Of a stretch of DNA of 20,442 nt, positions 598 to 7,953 are shown one piece after another. Numbering within the stretch: the first letter of the stretch is position 1; every line of letters begins with the position of its first letter. The DNA comes from a virus. The notes beneath the pieces were generated by a model. That model searched no databases. It had not been told where the DNA came from and worked only from the letters and a program-made list of their open reading frames with translations. The stretch spans positions 1 through 20,442 of IMG/VR virus record IMGVR_UViG_3300009150_000012. One strand, 5' to 3'. The position numbers and the translations under genes were made by a program.

Positions 598-1746
598 ATG
601 GATAAAAACAAAAAAGAAAACGGGCTGGCAACCCTGGAATCTCAGGATATATTCGCCAGATTCGAGGAACTCGATGACAGCCTAATTTTAAAGGAGCTCG
701 AGAACCAGATCGTGGATTCCTGGGTTTATCATTTCAACCAAGAAGGGACCGAAATCTGGGGATTAGGCAAGGTCGGCATCGATGCCTGCGCAAAGGAAAT
801 GGGGACGAAAGGCGTGGCCCTCCGGGAAGATTCGGTCGAGTATAATATTGACCCCACGCACCCGGAATTTGTTCTTTTCACGGCCAAAGTTTCAAAGCAC
901 GTCGTAGCAAAAGGGGGCGCAGAGGCTATGGTGGAATCGGCGATTGGCACCAAGCGGCAATGGATAATGCTGAAAAGAAGAAAAGACGGGAAACTTGTTC
1001 AAAATAAATTCTGGTTTGAACAGGGATCCATCAAGGCGCTGAGGAATGCCAAGGCCCGGCTTATCCCGGATGACATAAAAACCAAAATTATCACCTTTGC
1101 AAAACAGAAGAAAAAGGTGATCGAAATCGAACCGCCAAAAAAAAATAAAGAGACGGATAACGGCATAGCAGGTATGTCCAGCCAGGGCCCAGGCAAGGAG
1201 GAATTCAGAACGATCCCAATCACCCAGAAAGGCAAGGCGGTCATGCATACCAAATTTGAGGCGCTCGATCGATTCAAGGAAGCAAAGGCCCAGCTCGGGA
1301 CACAATTGTATTATAAGATTTTGGGCGAAAACGGTTACGAAAAATCAAGCCAGATCCCGGACAAGGATATCCCCAAAATTTATTATGCGTTGCTGGAGGC
1401 CCATGAGAGCATAAAAGCCCAAGTTAAAAAAACACCAGAAAAGGAAAAGCCTGCAGAGGAGAAAAAAGCGGCCGTTTTTCCCGGCGACGAGAAAAAAGAA
1501 CCGGAAACAGAACCAGAAGCGACAGCAGAAATACAGCCGGAAATGCCAACACAGGCAGAGATAATGGAGCTAACCAAACTCGAGGTGATCTTAGTGGACA
1601 AGCACGATTTCACGCCAGATCAAGTAATTGGAAAAATCATTGAAATGTTCGGCGGAGACAAGACAACCAAATTGACAAAAGAGCAAAATAAGGAAGCTAT
1701 TGAATATTTTAAGGCCGCGATTGAGGAGCTGAACAAAGGCAAATAA
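598..1746 (+). CDS. Putative Rad52-like single-strand annealing phage protein
   Basis: The gene encodes 382 residues, with AAAGGAGG seven bases before ATG. The N-terminal half (about residues 30-190) is one compact domain. It contains WGLGKVGIDACAKEMG, then a run of alternating hydrophobic strands, then FWFEQGSIKALRNAKARLIP. The last block resembles the 'SKAxRNAxxxLIP' helix of phage Rad52/ERF-like annealing proteins, which pair complementary single strands during phage recombination. The middle (about 190-300) is charged and low in complexity, including a KTPEKEKPAEEKKA-type linker, and the C-terminus looks like a small helical domain. The family assignment is inference from pattern and position just upstream of the replication genes. 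The alternative is a phage protein of unknown function. Confidence 0.45.
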   Translation: MDKNKKENGLATLESQDIFARFEELDDSLILKELENQIVDSWVYHFNQEGTEIWGLGKVGIDACAKEMGTKGVALREDSVEYNIDPTHPEFVLFTAKVSKHVVAKGGAEAMVESAIGTKRQWIMLKRRKDGKLVQNKFWFEQGSIKALRNAKARLIPDDIKTKIITFAKQKKKVIEIEPPKKNKETDNGIAGMSSQGPGKEEFRTIPITQKGKAVMHTKFEALDRFKEAKAQLGTQLYYKILGENGYEKSSQIPDKDIPKIYYALLEAHESIKAQVKKTPEKEKPAEEKKAAVFPGDEKKEPETEPEATAEIQPEMPTQAEIMELTKLEVILVDKHDFTPDQVIGKIIEMFGGDKTTKLTKEQNKEAIEYFKAAIEELNKGK

Positions 1747-1748
1747 CC

Positions 1749-2006
1749 GTGAGTTATTCCCAATACGAGCGCGGCAAATATATCCGGCTGAAGATGATCC
1801 ACCACCTCCTCCTCGATGGGGGAGCCGGGAAGATCAACCCGGAACAATTCGGGACCACCTGGGACCTCATGGACGAAATGGATACAGCCGGGACCACCCA
1901 CAGCCAGGAACTCGCGCAGGACGAATATTATAAGAAGGCAGTTTCTGCGTGGGTCATAGCTAAGAAAACCCACTGCCAAAGAATAGCCAAATCAAAATCA
2001 ATTTAA
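1749..2006 (+). CDS. Small phage protein of unknown function
   Basis: The gene encodes 85 residues and starts at GTG, two bases after the preceding stop. No strong ribosome-binding site is visible, so it is probably translated by coupling to the upstream gene. The protein begins MSYSQYERGKYIRLKMIHHLLLDGG and is mostly helical in look. It has one Cys and no recognisable motif. I do not recognise the family. Its position between the candidate annealing protein and the coiled-coil protein suggests a role in the same recombination block, but nothing in the sequence proves it. Confidence 0.55.
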   Translation: MSYSQYERGKYIRLKMIHHLLLDGGAGKINPEQFGTTWDLMDEMDTAGTTHSQELAQDEYYKKAVSAWVIAKKTHCQRIAKSKSI

Positions 2007-2018
2007 GGAGGAAAAAAT

Positions 2019-2642
2019 ATGGAAAAAATTGAACAAATTAAGAAGGACGCCCTGGGCTTCCCAGCTCGGGCAAGGAGCCTCATTGTCCACAACAATGAAA
2101 CGCTTGGGATGGCGAATAATTTTATTTTGAAAATGAAGGAAATGATGGCAGAAGTGGCCGGATCTTACGACCCAATTATCAGCCACGCAAAAGCGGAAAA
2201 AAAGAAATATTCCGACCCCTTGAAAGAAGCCCAACAAATAGCCCGGACCCACGTCACTTCCTACCTGGAGGACCAAGCAGAGATCCAAAGAAAAGCCAAT
2301 GATAAGGCCAGGGAGGAAGAGCAAGAGCGACAAAAGAAAGAGAACGATGAGCTGGACCGGGCCAAGAAATATCAGGACCAGGGAATGCAAGAAGAGGCCG
2401 ACGAGATAATAGAAGATATCCCTCTGCCGGCACGCGTCGAAGAACCGCCTCCTCCCAAACCGGCGGGCCTGGCGCTTAAGCGGATCGTGGACACAGAGAA
2501 AATCAACCGAACCGTTGAGCTCGGCAAAGGAAAATGCCAGATCCCGGGGATCAGAATTTATCCAATATGGAAGTGGGAAATCGAGGACAGAACCAAGATC
2601 CCCAGCAGCTATTATAAGAGCACCATTTCGACACGGGGATAA
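2019..2642 (+). CDS. Coiled-coil phage protein near recombination genes
   Basis: The gene encodes 207 residues, with AAGGAGG upstream of ATG. Residues 1-60 are helical. Residues about 60-125 form a long charged coiled coil rich in Glu, Lys and Gln (AQQIARTHVTSYLEDQAEIQRK onward). A Pro-rich hinge (IPLPARVEEPPPPKP) follows, then a small C-terminal domain. Proteins of this shape are common beside phage annealing and nuclease genes, and their role is unknown. The C-terminal domain has an odd order: the block VDTEKINRTV...IPGIRIY comes before the block WKWEIEDRTKIPSSYY. In relatives as I remember them, the W-x-x-E-I-x-D...IP-x-x-Y part comes first and the IPG-[IV]-R-[IV]-Y part comes last. See the separate finding. 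Confidence 0.6.
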   Translation: MEKIEQIKKDALGFPARARSLIVHNNETLGMANNFILKMKEMMAEVAGSYDPIISHAKAEKKKYSDPLKEAQQIARTHVTSYLEDQAEIQRKANDKAREEEQERQKKENDELDRAKKYQDQGMQEEADEIIEDIPLPARVEEPPPPKPAGLALKRIVDTEKINRTVELGKGKCQIPGIRIYPIWKWEIEDRTKIPSSYYKSTISTRG

Positions 2643-2646
2643 GCCC

Positions 2647-2931
2647 ATGAACGCGATAAGAATAATCTGCCAAGATTGCGGCCGCGAATTCAAATGCGAT
2701 ACGGCCGGCGTTTTGGTTAAGGAGCTTTTTCAGAAAGATAAAGAGGTTTATCGAATATGGCTGGCCGACCTTTTAAGATGCCCCGGTTGCGGAATAACTG
2801 TAATAAGCCGATTCGCAGATAACCCGATCGCGGAACATTGGAACAAAGAAAAGATGGCGGATATACTGCGGCAATGCGAGACCAGGATCCTGGGAAAAGA
2901 TCTTTTTATCTGGAGGGAAAAGAGTAAATAG
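2647..2931 (+). CDS. Small zinc-ribbon protein
   Basis: The gene encodes 94 residues. I chose ATG 2647, four bases after the previous stop, with GGGG at 2635-2638 as a weak ribosome-binding site. A longer in-frame start would run far into the upstream gene. Two CxxC pairs are visible, CQDC near residue 8 and CPGC near residue 50, enough for one zinc site of the ribbon type. The rest is helical (NPIAEHWNKEKMADILRQCE). Phage zinc-ribbon proteins of this size are usually DNA- or protein-binding accessories. The precise role is unknown. Confidence 0.6.
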   Translation: MNAIRIICQDCGREFKCDTAGVLVKELFQKDKEVYRIWLADLLRCPGCGITVISRFADNPIAEHWNKEKMADILRQCETRILGKDLFIWREKSK

Positions 2932-4697: not shown

Positions 4698-4932
4698 GCC
4701 TTTTCCGACCAGCAGCCACCTCGCGGCCTGGACCGCCCTGAATTGCGGGACATGCAAGAAGGGATATGTCCATATTCGGGCTGAATTCCGCTGCGATTGG
4801 GAGCGAGAAATTTATACAGCATCGCTCATGAACAGCGAAATCAACGAAGAAACGGCCAAGGCGATCGGCCTATTGGATAGCGAGGGCTGCGACCTTTGGG
4901 AATGTCCAGGATGGGAGCGAGGACGAAAATGA
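4681..4932 (+). CDS. Small Cys-rich phage protein
   Basis: The gene encodes 83 residues and overlaps the previous gene by 17 bases. It has CGTCKKG near residue 22, a single Cys in FRCDWE, and CDLWECPGW near the end. This fits a zinc-binding pattern seen in small phage proteins of unknown role, in which an N-C-x-x-C pair opens and a W-x-C-P-x-W pair closes the domain. The gene ends in an ATGA overlap with the methyltransferase, so the two are probably translated together. Confidence 0.55.
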   Translation: MAKKYKPFPTSSHLAAWTALNCGTCKKGYVHIRAEFRCDWEREIYTASLMNSEINEETAKAIGLLDSEGCDLWECPGWERGRK

Positions 4933-5735
4933 TAGAATGGGTCGAGAAATCATCCGGATTAATTGTCCCCGAAAATTACTGCCAGCCTTCCCGGCCCAGA
5001 GCAGTAGACCTTTTTTCTGGAGCCGGGGGAATGTCACTCGGCTACATAAAGGCGGGCTTTGAAGTCGTGGCTGGGCTCGACAATGATTGCTCTGCAGCGA
5101 TGACTTATATGGTAAATTTAGGAAATTTCCCAATGAAAATCCATTTTATTGAACCCGATGACGAGACGCGATTTGAAAGAGCCTTGAACCGGGAAAGCAA
5201 AAGGGGAAAAAGCGGGACGATAATCCCTTCCTTTCCGGTAACGGGCACCGGATGGATCGCCAGCCAGCCGGCCGGAACACCTGGCCTTTCTCATTTTTTC
5301 CTTGGCGACGTAAAGAAGATAACCGGCCAAGAGATCCTTGATGCCATAGAGATAAAAAAAGGAGAATTGGATTGCGTGATGGGCGGCCCCCCATGCCAAG
5401 GATTCAGCATCGCCGGGAAGAGAAATGTCATGGATCCACGAAATTCTTACATTTTTGATTTTATTCGGCTGGTCTTTGAGATGCAGCCAAAAACGATGTT
5501 TTTTGAAAACGTCCCCGGAATTACGAGTATGGTTACGCCGGAAGGATTGCCCGTTATTGATTCGATGTGCCTGGCCCTAGAAGAGGGCGGATGGGGAACT
5601 TATAAAACACTTTTGAGGGCAATGAAATATCAGGCTGGATCCGGGGCCTTGCTTCGAGAAAAGAAATCAATAAATAAAAAAAAGGAAATGAGGCCGAAGC
5701 AACAAAAATTATTTAAAAATAGGCAGGTAAGATGA
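4929..5735 (+). CDS. C5-cytosine DNA methyltransferase, short form
   Basis: The gene encodes 268 residues from ATG 4929 (ATGA overlap with the upstream stop). It transfers a methyl group from SAM to cytosine C5 in DNA. Motif I is AVDLFSGAGGMSLG (residues 25-38), motif IV is GGPPCQGFS (152-160, catalytic Cys156), and motif VI contains FFENVPG (Glu193). A 60-residue insert separates motifs I and IV. The usual second half is missing: there is no QxRxR motif VIII, no target-recognition domain and no motifs IX-X. After GWGTYKTLLRAMKYQ the protein ends in a basic, Lys-rich tail. I recall a set of environmental and phage enzymes with this same short ending, so it may be a natural TRD-less form rather than a truncation. 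Target specificity would then need another protein. Confidence 0.85.
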   Translation: MIEWVEKSSGLIVPENYCQPSRPRAVDLFSGAGGMSLGYIKAGFEVVAGLDNDCSAAMTYMVNLGNFPMKIHFIEPDDETRFERALNRESKRGKSGTIIPSFPVTGTGWIASQPAGTPGLSHFFLGDVKKITGQEILDAIEIKKGELDCVMGGPPCQGFSIAGKRNVMDPRNSYIFDFIRLVFEMQPKTMFFENVPGITSMVTPEGLPVIDSMCLALEEGGWGTYKTLLRAMKYQAGSGALLREKKSINKKKEMRPKQQKLFKNRQVR

Positions 5736-5905
5736 AGGACGAAACGCACCGGCTGAACTGGCCGGAATGGGTCGAATATTGCGTAGAGCACGGCATCGAC
5801 CCGCGTGAACATTGCGAGGACGGCCACGATTTAGGCGGCGGAAATAGCATCACAATTGAGTGCCTCGAGGATCCGCCGGAGGAGGACGACGACAGCGTCC
5901 GATAA
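5732..5905 (+). CDS. 57-residue acidic protein ending in dif-like site 1
   Basis: The ATG at 5732 overlaps the methyltransferase stop by four bases (AGGCAGGTAAG just upstream). The protein starts MKDETHRLNWPEWVEYC and ends in a run of Glu and Asp. It has three Cys and two His residues that might bind metal. The family is not recognised. Codon use is like the flanking phage genes, not like the AT-rich cassettes that follow. Its TAA stop (5903-5905) is the last three bases of the XerC-like arm of site 1, so the array begins exactly where this gene ends. Confidence 0.6.
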   Translation: MKDETHRLNWPEWVEYCVEHGIDPREHCEDGHDLGGGNSITIECLEDPPEEDDDSVR

Positions 5906-5922
5906 TAGTAATTATGTCAACT
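5895..5922 (+). repeat. dif-like site 1 (left boundary)
   Basis: Left arm GCGTCCGATAA (8 of 11 with the array consensus), spacer TAGTAA, right arm TTATGTCAACT (11 of 11). The left arm is the true end of the upstream gene, with TAA as its stop. This suggests the array was built onto a site at the edge of the phage operon. AGGAAG follows at 5923 as the ribosome-binding site for the first cassette gene. Confidence 0.7.
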
Positions 5923-5933
5923 AGGAAGAAAGG

Positions 5934-6134
5934 ATGCCACGAAAATCTAATATGATAGGCAAGGAGAGATGGATAAGAGAGAAGGCAAGGCTTATTGTCG
6001 AAAATCTATACATGTATAAAATGGATCAGAAACCACATTATGTTCCAGATTCAGATGAGCGCAAACACTGGGATATAAAGATAGGGATAGCCGAGGACTT
6101 CATCCGTTCATTAGTTAAAGAATTCAATGATTGA
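5934..6134 (+). CDS. Cassette 1 gene a, unknown small protein
   Basis: The gene encodes 66 residues, with ATG five bases after AGGAAG, which itself abuts dif-like site 1. The protein is charged and probably all helical: MPRKSNMIGKERWIREKARL, then a short loop HYVPDSDERKHWD, then a helix ending in FIRSLVKEFND. It has no Cys residues and no known motif. The DNA is AT-rich compared with the phage genes. It overlaps the next gene by eight bases, which makes this the only two-gene cassette in the array. The role is unknown. Small proteins in such positions are often anti-host or anti-defence factors, but nothing here proves that. Confidence 0.6.
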   Translation: MPRKSNMIGKERWIREKARLIVENLYMYKMDQKPHYVPDSDERKHWDIKIGIAEDFIRSLVKEFND

Positions 6135-6324
6135 TTATTTAATTTCCAACAAAAAACGTAAATGCACCTGGTGTAATAAGAGAATTAAAAAAGGAGATTG
6201 GTTTTATCTTGATAACACAAGTTTCACCATGAGTGGTAATGATATTATTATTTGTGAGAAATGTGGACATGAACAAGAAGAAGAAGAAAAGTTAGCGATG
6301 GGATATTACGATAAGATACAATGA
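6127..6324 (+). CDS. Cassette 1 gene b, small zinc-finger protein
   Basis: The gene encodes 65 residues. ATG lies inside the end of gene a, so translation is probably coupled. Two CxxC pairs, CTWCNKRIKKGDWFYL near residue 13 and CEKCGHE near residue 45, form a treble-clef or ribbon-like zinc site, followed by an acidic run of six Glu residues. The arrangement 'C-x-x-C-x-x-x-I-x-x-G-D' is common in small zinc proteins that bind partner proteins or nucleic acid. The stop is eight bases before dif-like site 2. The function is unknown. Confidence 0.65.
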   Translation: MIDYLISNKKRKCTWCNKRIKKGDWFYLDNTSFTMSGNDIIICEKCGHEQEEEEKLAMGYYDKIQ

Positions 6325-6332
6325 AGTTTACT

Positions 6333-6358
6333 GTGTCGCATAAGTGATTATGTCAACT
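6333..6358 (+). repeat. dif-like site 2 (4-bp spacer)
   Basis: Left arm GTGTCGCATAA and right arm TTATGTCAACT are both perfect, but the spacer is only GTGA, two bases shorter than the 6 bp typical of dif. TAGGAGGT at 6361-6368 follows as a ribosome-binding site. Confidence 0.7.
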
Positions 6359-6372
6359 AATAGGAGGTAAAT

Positions 6373-6513
6373 ATGATTGAATATGGGATAGTAAAATTGG
6401 ATACAGGAACACAAAGGAGAGATTATGTGTGGGGAGTAGACAAGTGGAAAAAAATATTAAAGTTGCTCTTTGAAGTGTTGATGTCAATATCACATAATCC
6501 TGCGGAATTTTGA
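6373..6513 (+). CDS. Cassette 2, 46-residue protein
   Basis: The ATG lies five bases after GGAGG, at the same spacing as in the other cassettes, and the TGA stop (6511-6513) overlaps the first two bases of dif-like site 3. The protein starts MIEYGIVKLDTGTQRRDYVWG and ends with a hydrophobic helix (KILKLLFEVLMSIS) that could be amphipathic or membrane-associated. It would be missed by any length cut-off of 60 residues. Its reality is supported by the fit of both its ends to the array and by its ribosome-binding site. The family is not recognised. Confidence 0.55.
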   Translation: MIEYGIVKLDTGTQRRDYVWGVDKWKKILKLLFEVLMSISHNPAEF

Positions 6514-6539
6514 GTCGTAAAACTACGATTATGTCAACT
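6512..6539 (+). repeat. dif-like site 3
   Basis: Left arm GAGTCGTAAAA (8 of 11), spacer CTACGA, right arm TTATGTCAACT (11 of 11). The spacer is identical to that of site 6. In Xer recombination the exchanged central region should match, so sites 3 and 6 would be a compatible pair. Confidence 0.7.
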
Positions 6540-6552
6540 AACAGGAGATTAA

Positions 6553-6750
6553 ATGAGAATAAGAGATGACTGGAAAGGAGCATTTAAGGGTGCTTTTCGT
6601 AAAGGCTGGGAAACAGAAAGGTGCGGAAAACCAATAGAAGATTGTCCTTATGAACCGAAACCAGGCCCATATGCAGCAACAGAGCGGTTTAGAGATGCTT
6701 GGAGAGATGGTTGGAATACGGCAAGACAAGAAAGAAACAGTGTCGCATAA
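6553..6750 (+). CDS. Cassette 3, Rmf/CrpP-like small protein
   Basis: The gene encodes 65 residues, with GGAG five bases before ATG. It contains GAFRKGWETERCGKP, then CPYEP, then RFRDAWRDGWNTAR. This matches the plan of ribosome modulation factor (an 'A-x-x-x-G-[YW]' helix, a conserved CPY, then a 'W-x-x-G-[WR]' helix), also seen in plasmid CrpP proteins. Rmf binds 70S ribosomes and promotes their dimerisation into inactive 100S particles. Whether this protein does that is not shown. The last codons AGT GTC GCA TAA are supplied by the left arm of dif-like site 4, so the site encodes the C-terminal SVA and the stop. A phage-borne copy could slow host translation, which is a guess. Confidence 0.7.
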   Translation: MRIRDDWKGAFKGAFRKGWETERCGKPIEDCPYEPKPGPYAATERFRDAWRDGWNTARQERNSVA

Positions 6751-6761
6751 CTATGTCAACT
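6740..6761 (+). repeat. dif-like site 4 with 6-bp deletion
   Basis: Left arm GTGTCGCATAA is perfect and runs straight into CTATGTCAACT, with no spacer. Compared with site 6, six bases are missing from CTACGATTATG, a deletion flanked by TA on both sides. If Xer acts on these sites, this copy should be dead or poor. TAGGAGGT follows directly. Confidence 0.65.
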
Positions 6762-6772
6762 AGGAGGTGAGG

Positions 6773-7009
6773 ATGAAACCAAAAAGTAGGACACAAAAAT
6801 TAGCTTCATTAATGGAAGGAAAAATGGGGGACAATCGGTATGTTATAAACAAAAGGGAAAAAGGGCAACAAAGATTTTTTAAATGTGTTTGTTGTGGTAC
6901 GAAGTTCGATTTTAAAGATTCTGAGGATTATGTTGGAGCGGTCAAGCAATGGGAAGATGGTGGAGGAAAATGTTACCGTTGTGCAAATGGATTTTGTCAT
7001 TGCAAATAA
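6773..7009 (+). CDS. Cassette 4, Cys-rich zinc-binding protein
   Basis: The gene encodes 78 residues. ATG 6773 is chosen over GTG 6767 because GGAGG (6763-6767) then has the five-base spacing used throughout the array. The first 45 residues are basic (MKPKSRTQKLASLMEGK). The rest holds CVCCGTKFDF, CYRC and CHC (seven Cys), consistent with one or two zinc sites: a ribbon opened by CVCC and closed by CYRCANGFCHC. No family name can be given. The DNA is AT-rich like the other cassettes. The stop is two bases before dif-like site 5. Confidence 0.6.
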   Translation: MKPKSRTQKLASLMEGKMGDNRYVINKREKGQQRFFKCVCCGTKFDFKDSEDYVGAVKQWEDGGGKCYRCANGFCHCK

Positions 7010-7011
7010 CC

Positions 7012-7039
7012 GTGTCGCATAAGGGATATCATGTCAACT
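7012..7039 (+). repeat. dif-like site 5 (right arm supplies a start codon)
   Basis: Left arm GTGTCGCATAA (11 of 11), spacer GGGATA, right arm TCATGTCAACT (10 of 11). Unlike the other sites no GGAGG follows. Instead the ATG inside the arm opens the next gene, with AAGGG of the spacer region as the only ribosome-binding candidate. Confidence 0.7.
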
Positions 7040-7222
7040 AAAGATGATTTAATTTGTAAGAATTGCGATTCTTATATGCCAGGAATAATGAAGCCACATG
7101 AAGGCGTGTGTGAATTTTACGAAACTAAAGTTATTGAAAAAGAAATTATTTGTGAGTATTTCTTGCCAAAAGAGGAGAAATGGGAGTTATGGTTAGCCGA
7201 AATACCAGAAGATTTACAATGA
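7031..7222 (+). CDS. Cassette 5, small Cys-rich protein starting inside site
   Basis: The gene encodes 63 residues. The only plausible start is ATG 7031 within the right arm of site 5, so the protein begins Met-Ser-Thr from arm sequence. A C-x-x-C (CKNCDSY) is followed by G-V-C-E-F and then CEYFLP, a pattern of four Cys often seen in small bacterial zinc proteins of unknown function. The C-terminal half is acidic with several Trp residues (WELWLAEIPEDLQ). It ends five bases before dif-like site 6. AT-rich composition and a fit to the array at both ends support a real cassette. Confidence 0.6.
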   Translation: MSTKDDLICKNCDSYMPGIMKPHEGVCEFYETKVIEKEIICEYFLPKEEKWELWLAEIPEDLQ

Positions 7223-7227
7223 ACCTT

Positions 7228-7255
7228 GTGTCGCATAACTACGATTATGTCAACT
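7228..7255 (+). repeat. dif-like site 6 (right boundary)
   Basis: This is the best copy in the array: GTGTCGCATAA, CTACGA, TTATGTCAACT, all consensus. AGGAGG follows and serves the GTG start of the next phage gene. Joining the left arm of site 1 to the right arm of site 6 would leave one site and place that gene directly after the 57-residue gene, restoring a compact operon. Confidence 0.75.
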
Positions 7256-7266
7256 AGGAGGAGTGA

Positions 7267-7953
7267 GTGAGCCTGAATAAATCCAAAGGAAATATGTATC
7301 CCTGGGTTACGCATACGTGGAATCCGATCCGTGGCAAATGCCCGCACGGTTGCGTTTATTGCTTCATGAAGGACCGGAATGTGGGGGATTTGCGCTTGGA
7401 CGGGCGGACGCTAGAAGACAACCTGGGATCTGGCCGGACGATTTTCGTAGGCAGCAGCACGGATATGTGGGCAGGGCGAGTTTGGGATTCCTGGATTTTG
7501 ATGGTGCTTGAGAAATGCAATTTATACCCAAATAATTATATTTTTCAAAGCAAAAACCCGGGCCGCTTTTTTGACACCGCATGCGGCGAGGAAATATCGG
7601 AGAAATTCCCAGTGGGAACAATCCTGGGAACGACGCTGGAATCAAACAACGATTATGGCCAAGGCGTTTATGCCCCTGCACCATGGGCGCGGGCAGCCGC
7701 GATGACATACCCACAACTCGACCATTTCAAGAAGATGGTGAGCATCGAACCAATCATGGCCTTTGATTTGAAAATTTTTGTGTATTGGATCCGGCAAATT
7801 AAGCCGGCATTTGTGAGCATTGGAGCGGACAGCAAAGGGCACAACCTACCGGAGCCGAAGCCGGACGATTTGACCGATTTTATAATCGCACTCAGGAGCA
7901 TAACCGAAGTGAAGATAAAGAAAAACCTGAGCCGGATCCTGGAGCTAACATGA
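7267..7953 (+). CDS. DUF5131 / phage Gp37-Gp68-like radical-SAM-type protein
   Basis: The gene encodes 228 residues and starts at GTG 7267, five bases after GGAGG. It opens with YPWVTHTWNPIRGKCPHGCVYCFM. The TWNP-x-x-G start and the C-x3-C-x2-C motif (CPHGCVYC) are typical of the DUF5131/Gp37Gp68 family, whose members look like radical SAM enzymes with one [4Fe-4S] cluster. Later blocks (GRTIFVGSSTDMWAG, FQSKNPGRF, TTLESNNDY, KMVSIEPIMAFDL, IRQIKPAFVSIGADS) fit the same barrel-like fold. The substrate is unknown; DNA or RNA base repair or modification has been considered for such phage genes. It is followed with a four-base overlap by a PUA-like gene, a pairing I believe is common. It is the first phage-type gene after the cassette array. 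Confidence 0.75.
   Translation: MSLNKSKGNMYPWVTHTWNPIRGKCPHGCVYCFMKDRNVGDLRLDGRTLEDNLGSGRTIFVGSSTDMWAGRVWDSWILMVLEKCNLYPNNYIFQSKNPGRFFDTACGEEISEKFPVGTILGTTLESNNDYGQGVYAPAPWARAAAMTYPQLDHFKKMVSIEPIMAFDLKIFVYWIRQIKPAFVSIGADSKGHNLPEPKPDDLTDFIIALRSITEVKIKKNLSRILELT

Follow-up and report, generated by a model that had tools for sequence, protein, structure and literature searches.

Copies of a host dif-like site separate small accessory-gene cassettes in a phage genome and may be places of their exchange

The window that we analysed, a stretch of 20,442 bases that makes up an entire IMG/VR virus record, carries a row of small genes separated by six dif-like sites. Our reading of this arrangement, to which we give a probability of just under one half, is that small accessory-gene cassettes are jointed by copies of dif, the site at which the host separates its chromosomes, and would be exchanged, most likely, by the host recombinases XerC and XerD. 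The row of cassettes suggests that host dif serves phages as a place to keep and trade accessory genes.

Phages are known to be mosaic, and few specific devices for this modularity are known. If host Xer recombination acts here, phages would possess an integron-like store of accessory genes without the cost of a recombinase, and viruses would exchange genes by way of a widespread bacterial house-keeping system. Even with homologous exchange, one would not expect host dif to be reused as a joint that brings its own stop and start signals. Looking downstream of dif copies also offers a simple way to find accessory genes of fast turnover.

Six dif-like sites in the window

As the original prediction stated, there are six dif-like copies and all point in one direction, every site lying on the + strand:

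5895..5922, + strand, dif-like site 1: GCGTCCGATAA-TAGTAA-TTATGTCAACT; C-arm with 3 mismatches, D-arm perfect
6333..6358, + strand, dif-like site 2: GTGTCGCATAA-GTGA-TTATGTCAACT; 4-bp spacer
6512..6539, + strand, dif-like site 3: GAGTCGTAAAA-CTACGA-TTATGTCAACT; C-arm with 3 mismatches
6740..6761, + strand, dif-like site 4: GTGTCGCATAA-CTATGTCAACT; spacer absent (0 bp)
7012..7039, + strand, dif-like site 5: GTGTCGCATAA-GGGATA-TCATGTCAACT; the ATG of the site is the start codon of cassette 5
7228..7255, + strand, dif-like site 6: GTGTCGCATAA-CTACGA-TTATGTCAACT; the only perfect copy, with TAGGAGG directly after it

The predicted layout of two 11-bp arms around a spacer stood in part: four of the six sites have a 6-bp spacer, but that at 6333 has 4 bp, that at 6740 has none, and the C-arms at 5895 and 6512 are those with mismatches. 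Allowing at most 1 mismatch, the D-arm TTATGTCAACT occurs at the six site positions and nowhere else in the whole window. The full 28-bp pattern (at most 3 mismatches) has 4 matches in the window against 0.00 in 100 shuffles, which rules out a chance origin of the motif. Compared with the E. coli dif sequence, the arms match at 8/11 and 9/11 positions, reproducing the 17/22 counted before. The spacer TAGTAA of site 1 is also present in G004, G005 and G008.

The sites divide the following genes:

5732..5905, + strand, left flank gene: 57 aa; homologous to a cassette gene that follows a site in L133
5934..6134, + strand, cassette 1, first gene: 66-aa open reading frame without family match; homologue absent from related records
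6127..6324, + strand, cassette 1, second gene: 65 aa, Cys-rich, zinc-ribbon/RING-like (below the Pfam cut-off)
6373..6513, + strand, cassette 2: 46-aa open reading frame
6553..6750, + strand, cassette 3: 65 aa, ribosome modulation factor (RMF) family, PF04957, E=6e-7 (above the cut-off)
6773..7009, + strand, cassette 4: 78-aa Cys-rich open reading frame
7031..7222, + strand, cassette 5: 63-aa Cys-rich open reading frame; MSTK start inside the D-arm
7267..7953, + strand, right flank gene: DUF5131-like protein (below the Pfam cut-off), 69% identity in G006

Mostly there is one gene per cassette. The genes between the sites encode 46-78 aa and, as had been described, are small and AT-rich; in many cases their products are Cys-rich. 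The stop codon of cassette 3 sits within the next C-arm (..SVA*). GC content is 33-42% inside the outer sites; it is 58% in the gene that directly precedes them and ~50% directly after them, so that the reported shift of composition at the outer sites is confirmed. Upstream of the array, at 4896-5735, lies a cytosine-5 DNA methyltransferase gene that looks short relative to its family profile.

The phage and its probable host

Terminase, portal, endolysin and replisome organiser genes were recognised in the window. The portal protein shares 34% identity with its counterpart in Geobacillus phage GBK2 and at most 50% with portal proteins in six Aminicenantia genomes, with best segments mostly at 38-45%; among annotated phage records, no DNA similar to the window was found. 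One region of the window has closer relatives:

598..2931, + strand, conserved left block: open reading frames 598-1746, 1749-2006, 2019-2642 (exonuclease-like) and 2515-2931; homologues in G006 and L132, 63-78% identical

A search for further relatives of this block returned only G006 and L132, the latter a contig of an Aminicenantes bin.

The original prediction proposed a comparison with the dif site of the predicted host. The arms of the site at 7228 are identical, at 22/22 positions, to the chromosomal dif of the class Aminicenantia. In a genome scan, many Candidatus Aminicenantes MAGs proved to have a single site with exactly these arms and a 6-bp spacer, and within the class a site with at most 2 mismatches is present in 74/142 genomes; because there is mostly one per genome, we take these arms with a 6-bp spacer to be Aminicenantia dif. 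Proteins of the XerD family were detected in 60/60 scanned Aminicenantia genomes, nearly always as two strong matches each. The dif site alone cannot fix the host, because other phyla have the same arms. It is rather the bins and relatives that point to Aminicenantia as the probable host: L132, and a prophage on contig C103 of MAG G060 (HyVt-373), where a bacterial-type protein kinase gene is followed by a phage integrase and then by the prophage, whose array-type sites lie at 20813 and 22184. The array of the window lies in a tailed-phage genome, and the phage is probably one of uncultured Aminicenantia-type bacteria.

In the same MAG, C96 (L193, L194) and C103 (L195) hold about twelve dif-like sites that have 6-bp spacers and lie at distances of 0.2-6 kb; a conserved 20-bp flank, TTCTTTTCCCCGAGAAGACT, stands before many of them. 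These clusters represent pdif-like modules of the chromosome or else an interspersed repeat.

Similar arrays in other phages

Pattern scans of IMG/VR, together with whole records, yielded similar arrays in at least 15 other phage or prophage contigs. Four of these (G004, G006, G008 and G011) have overlapping ends and are apparently circular and complete. Besides the Aminicenantes bin of L132, array-bearing contigs occur in bins of Cloacimonadota (L133) and Desulfobacterales (L123). No near-full match to the motif was found in 50,697 annotated phage records, and a scan of IMG/VR with the E. coli-type D-arm TTATGTTAAAT gave no convincing array among the 80 matches listed.

Across 59 array sites the spacers are mostly 0-7 bp long with a mode of 6 and few longer ones, the lengths being 6 (23 sites), 2 (11), 5 (8), 3 (6), 4 (5), 0 (3), and -1, 7 and 8 (1 each). 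A start codon is reached from 57/59 sites, after a Shine-Dalgarno sequence or inside the D-arm: either it lies 21-26 bases from the beginning of the D-arm with a Shine-Dalgarno sequence in front (two exceptions), or it is the D-arm's own ATG or GTG, in which case most of the proteins begin MSTK or MSTR. The C-arm holds the end of several upstream genes, ..VA* (GTC GCA TAA). Taking the arrays together, weak zinc-ribbon matches are frequent among the cassette proteins, and the genes also include an HNH endonuclease, a phosphoesterase/exonuclease and a DNA methyltransferase. The cassette at L133:3412-3933, for instance, codes for an HNH-endonuclease-like protein and has its start codon within the D-arm. 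A second C-arm type, GSGGCAAATAG, with the spacer AGAGGA, is seen at G004:16040 and L137:6556, in different phages and with different genes behind it.

Two candidates were rejected. L140, considered as a host-phage junction, is an array-type joint ahead of a methyltransferase gene, and the Syntrophomonadaceae matches from the genome scan, considered as arrays, belong to an interspersed repeat in which the spacer measures 0-1 bp. This dif-like repeat, ..GACAATTTAGTT-GTGTCGCATAATATGTCAACT-ACGAAAGTTGAG.., has 44 copies in the Syntrophomonadaceae MAG G026 and is perhaps a transposon end; its loci are L111, L112, L114, L118, L120, L127, L128, L130 and L134 (MAGs G025 and G026).

Gene content changes at the sites

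It had been proposed that gene content between the sites should vary while the flanks stay fixed, and this is what comparisons between relatives reveal. Over 41 kb, G001 and G007 show 99.95-100% identity, and the point at which they diverge lies exactly inside a site; the two agree up to ..GCAGGAGTGCGTGTCGCATAAGA, beyond which different cassettes follow, behind a 6-bp spacer in one and a 2-bp spacer in the other. In G002, the end of the contig consists of a site and gene that are also found near the contig start, with different upstream sequence and spacers of 6 and 3 bp; there are thus two alternative arrays within one population. Between L133 and L137 the left flank is 90% conserved up to a site and the right flank 80% from a site, and between these common flanks L133 has three cassettes and L137 two, unrelated to each other. 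G008, L129 and L140 have one common upstream gene up to a site, followed by a different gene in each. The cassettes of the window itself have no homologue in G006, L132 or L137, though the flanks are 63-77% identical at the protein level. Relatives do not, therefore, all share the same genes between the sites.

Homology on one side only was observed in 47/49 site-by-relative comparisons against 316/381 gene starts without a site (p=0.019). The breakpoints were not significantly tighter at sites (19/49) than at site-less gene starts (106/381; p=0.13), and we have dropped the claim of greater exactness at sites. These phages are widely mosaic at gene starts that lack a site. Several cassette homologues, in G004, G011, G008, G005 and L132, have no site, and their homology begins at the Shine-Dalgarno sequence. 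Taken together, the comparisons show the joints to be places of exchange, against a background of strong gene-start mosaicism.

Xer recombination and its rivals

By sequence, each joint consists of three parts: a XerC-type half-site with which the upstream cassette closes (in many cases with its stop codon), the spacer, and a XerD-type half-site that opens the next cassette and either precedes TAGGAGG and a start codon or contains the start codon. In the mechanism that we propose, a piece joined at a site would enter the operon ready for expression, because the site carries both direction and translation signals. The exchange itself would most likely be made by host XerC/XerD on copies that retain the 6-bp spacer. 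Copies with a shortened spacer or a damaged C-arm are probably weak or locked, being swapped by homologous recombination or not at all, and as such would protect the array from excision. We thus regard the intact copies as candidates for present or recent Xer sites, and the altered ones as probably locked or spread by homology.

Several results are consistent with Xer recombination. The positions that vary in the sites with 6-bp spacers match those that vary in host dif (Spearman 0.79), which does not hold for the short-spacer sites (-0.03). Identical 6-bp spacers occur between different phages in 10 pairs against 0.45 expected, a recurrence that is expected because Xer needs matching centres. 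No tyrosine recombinase gene (PF00589) was found in the window or in 18/19 other phage records, an absence that is less certain for fragments; G006 has one, and so does the prophage on C103. Counted against Xer is that only 23/59 array sites have a 6-bp spacer, given that known XerCD sites have spacers of 6-8 bp (PMC5357621). Nor are the short-spacer sites simply dead: they keep the C-arm better than the 6-bp sites (0.31 against 0.95 mismatches), and they still spread, because arrays contain repeated copies of non-6-bp spacers (L133 has GGTCA three times). The integron-like store relying on host XerC/XerD that was originally predicted therefore stands as far as the dif-like sites, the varying content and the missing recombinase in the window and 18/19 other records are concerned, while Xer recombination itself we infer, with homologous recombination as a serious rival.

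That rival holds that the sites are dif-derived linkers, and that the swaps occur by homologous or relaxed single-strand-annealing recombination between repeats of ~35 bp (the arms plus TAGGAGG), using phage or host recombinases rather than Xer. It is serious because of the non-6-bp spacers, the duplicated short-spacer sites and the breakpoints at site-less gene starts: spacers of any length from 0 to 7 bp are tolerated and passed on, and such exchange accords with the general gene-start mosaicism of these phages. The exonuclease-like gene at 2019-2642 of the window, which adjoins the gene of a conserved 382-aa protein without a family assignment, favours it too, and its product is a hint of a possible phage recombination module. 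Homologous recombination between repeats thus fits nearly as well as XerCD, but it leaves three things unexplained, namely the 22/22 identity of the linker to host dif, the spacer mode at 6, and the host-dif-like positional variation of the 6-bp sites. Weighing these, we give Xer exchange a probability of about one half, and its homologous rival one of a third.

A further explanation, which we consider unlikely, is that the motif is a start-associated leader, that is, a protein-binding or translation signal before certain genes with ordinary mosaicism around it. The precedent is the SAS/ESAS of cluster K mycobacteriophages, described as a repeated two-arm motif with variable spacer, just upstream of many small-gene starts (PMC3203893). 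The arrays resemble these in their variable spacers and in their position just upstream of the start, which 57/59 sites have at a stereotyped distance. Yet the arms of ESAS, in Anaya and in Pixie, form long inverted repeats whose sequence is a different one. ESAS also stay with their gene families, and cassette exchange is not reported for them (PMC3203893). In our arrays there is no such fidelity: homologous genes occur both with and without a site, which makes a pure leader less likely and shows that the motif is more than the fixed leader that the original prediction had named as the alternative. The identity to host dif would, moreover, be a coincidence. An RNA hairpin leader specifically was rejected, as folding is no better than that of shuffles (z -1.0 to +0.7) and spacers of 0-2 bp give no loop.

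Finally, a chimeric joining of contigs from different phages via the repeated site is very improbable: G001 and G002 do end at or near sites and are metagenome assemblies, but arrays are intact in the window and in the apparently circular G004, G006, G008 and G011, they are present in many independent samples, and G001 and G007 share only 13 site bases on the left before parting, which is below the usual assembly word sizes.

Comparison with known systems

Returning to exchange by host XerC/XerD, a fuller form of it can be put forward more tentatively, namely a recombinase-free integron-like system in which XerC/XerD would insert, shuffle and remove cassettes at phage-specific dif variants, the site doubling as stop codon, ribosome site and start codon. 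As the spacers are mostly unlike the host's, cassettes in such a system would recombine mutually and not with the chromosome. Like integron cassettes, those described here are small, lie in the same direction within an operon and are separated by recombination sites; unlike them, they have neither an integron integrase nor attC hairpins, and the dif copies stand 5' of each gene.

The pdif (Re27) modules of Acinetobacter plasmids are gene modules flanked by inversely oriented sites (PMC7399989). They share with the arrays accessory genes that lie between pairs of XerC/XerD half-sites and have no recombinase of their own, and content that varies between fixed flanks. The arrays differ in lying in a phage operon, in their tiny genes, in site orientation (the window has six direct sites), in the built-in translation signals and in many non-6-bp spacers. 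Phages of the IMEX type (CTXphi, VGJphi and others) use one or two dif-like sites as attP for integration (PMC5357621). They too carry host-dif-like sites and rely on host XerC/XerD, as we propose here, but the array sites separate genes inside the phage and their spacers are mostly unlike the host's. The pdif modules, IMEX phages, integron cassettes and ESAS are each partly alike, and each is without a defining part. In agreement with the original prediction that no such phage system had been described, the open-access papers that we searched do not describe phage arrays of cassettes bounded by dif.

The host dif spacer is matched by 3/23 array spacers against 7/15 single sites in phage-related records (p=0.03), from which it seems that a second type of site, resembling attP, is present in some of these phages. 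The 20-kb window has no attP-like single site with a host spacer. Extra single sites, on the strand opposite to the array, occur at G002:30943 and 34552, G008:13656 and 17287, and G004:28591, some of them beside XRE-type regulators. In three of these the spacers, CGGTTA and CAGTTA, are Aminicenantia dif spacers. The extra single sites in G002, G004 and G008, which in G002 and G008 form pairs ~3.6 kb apart, are likely to be attP.
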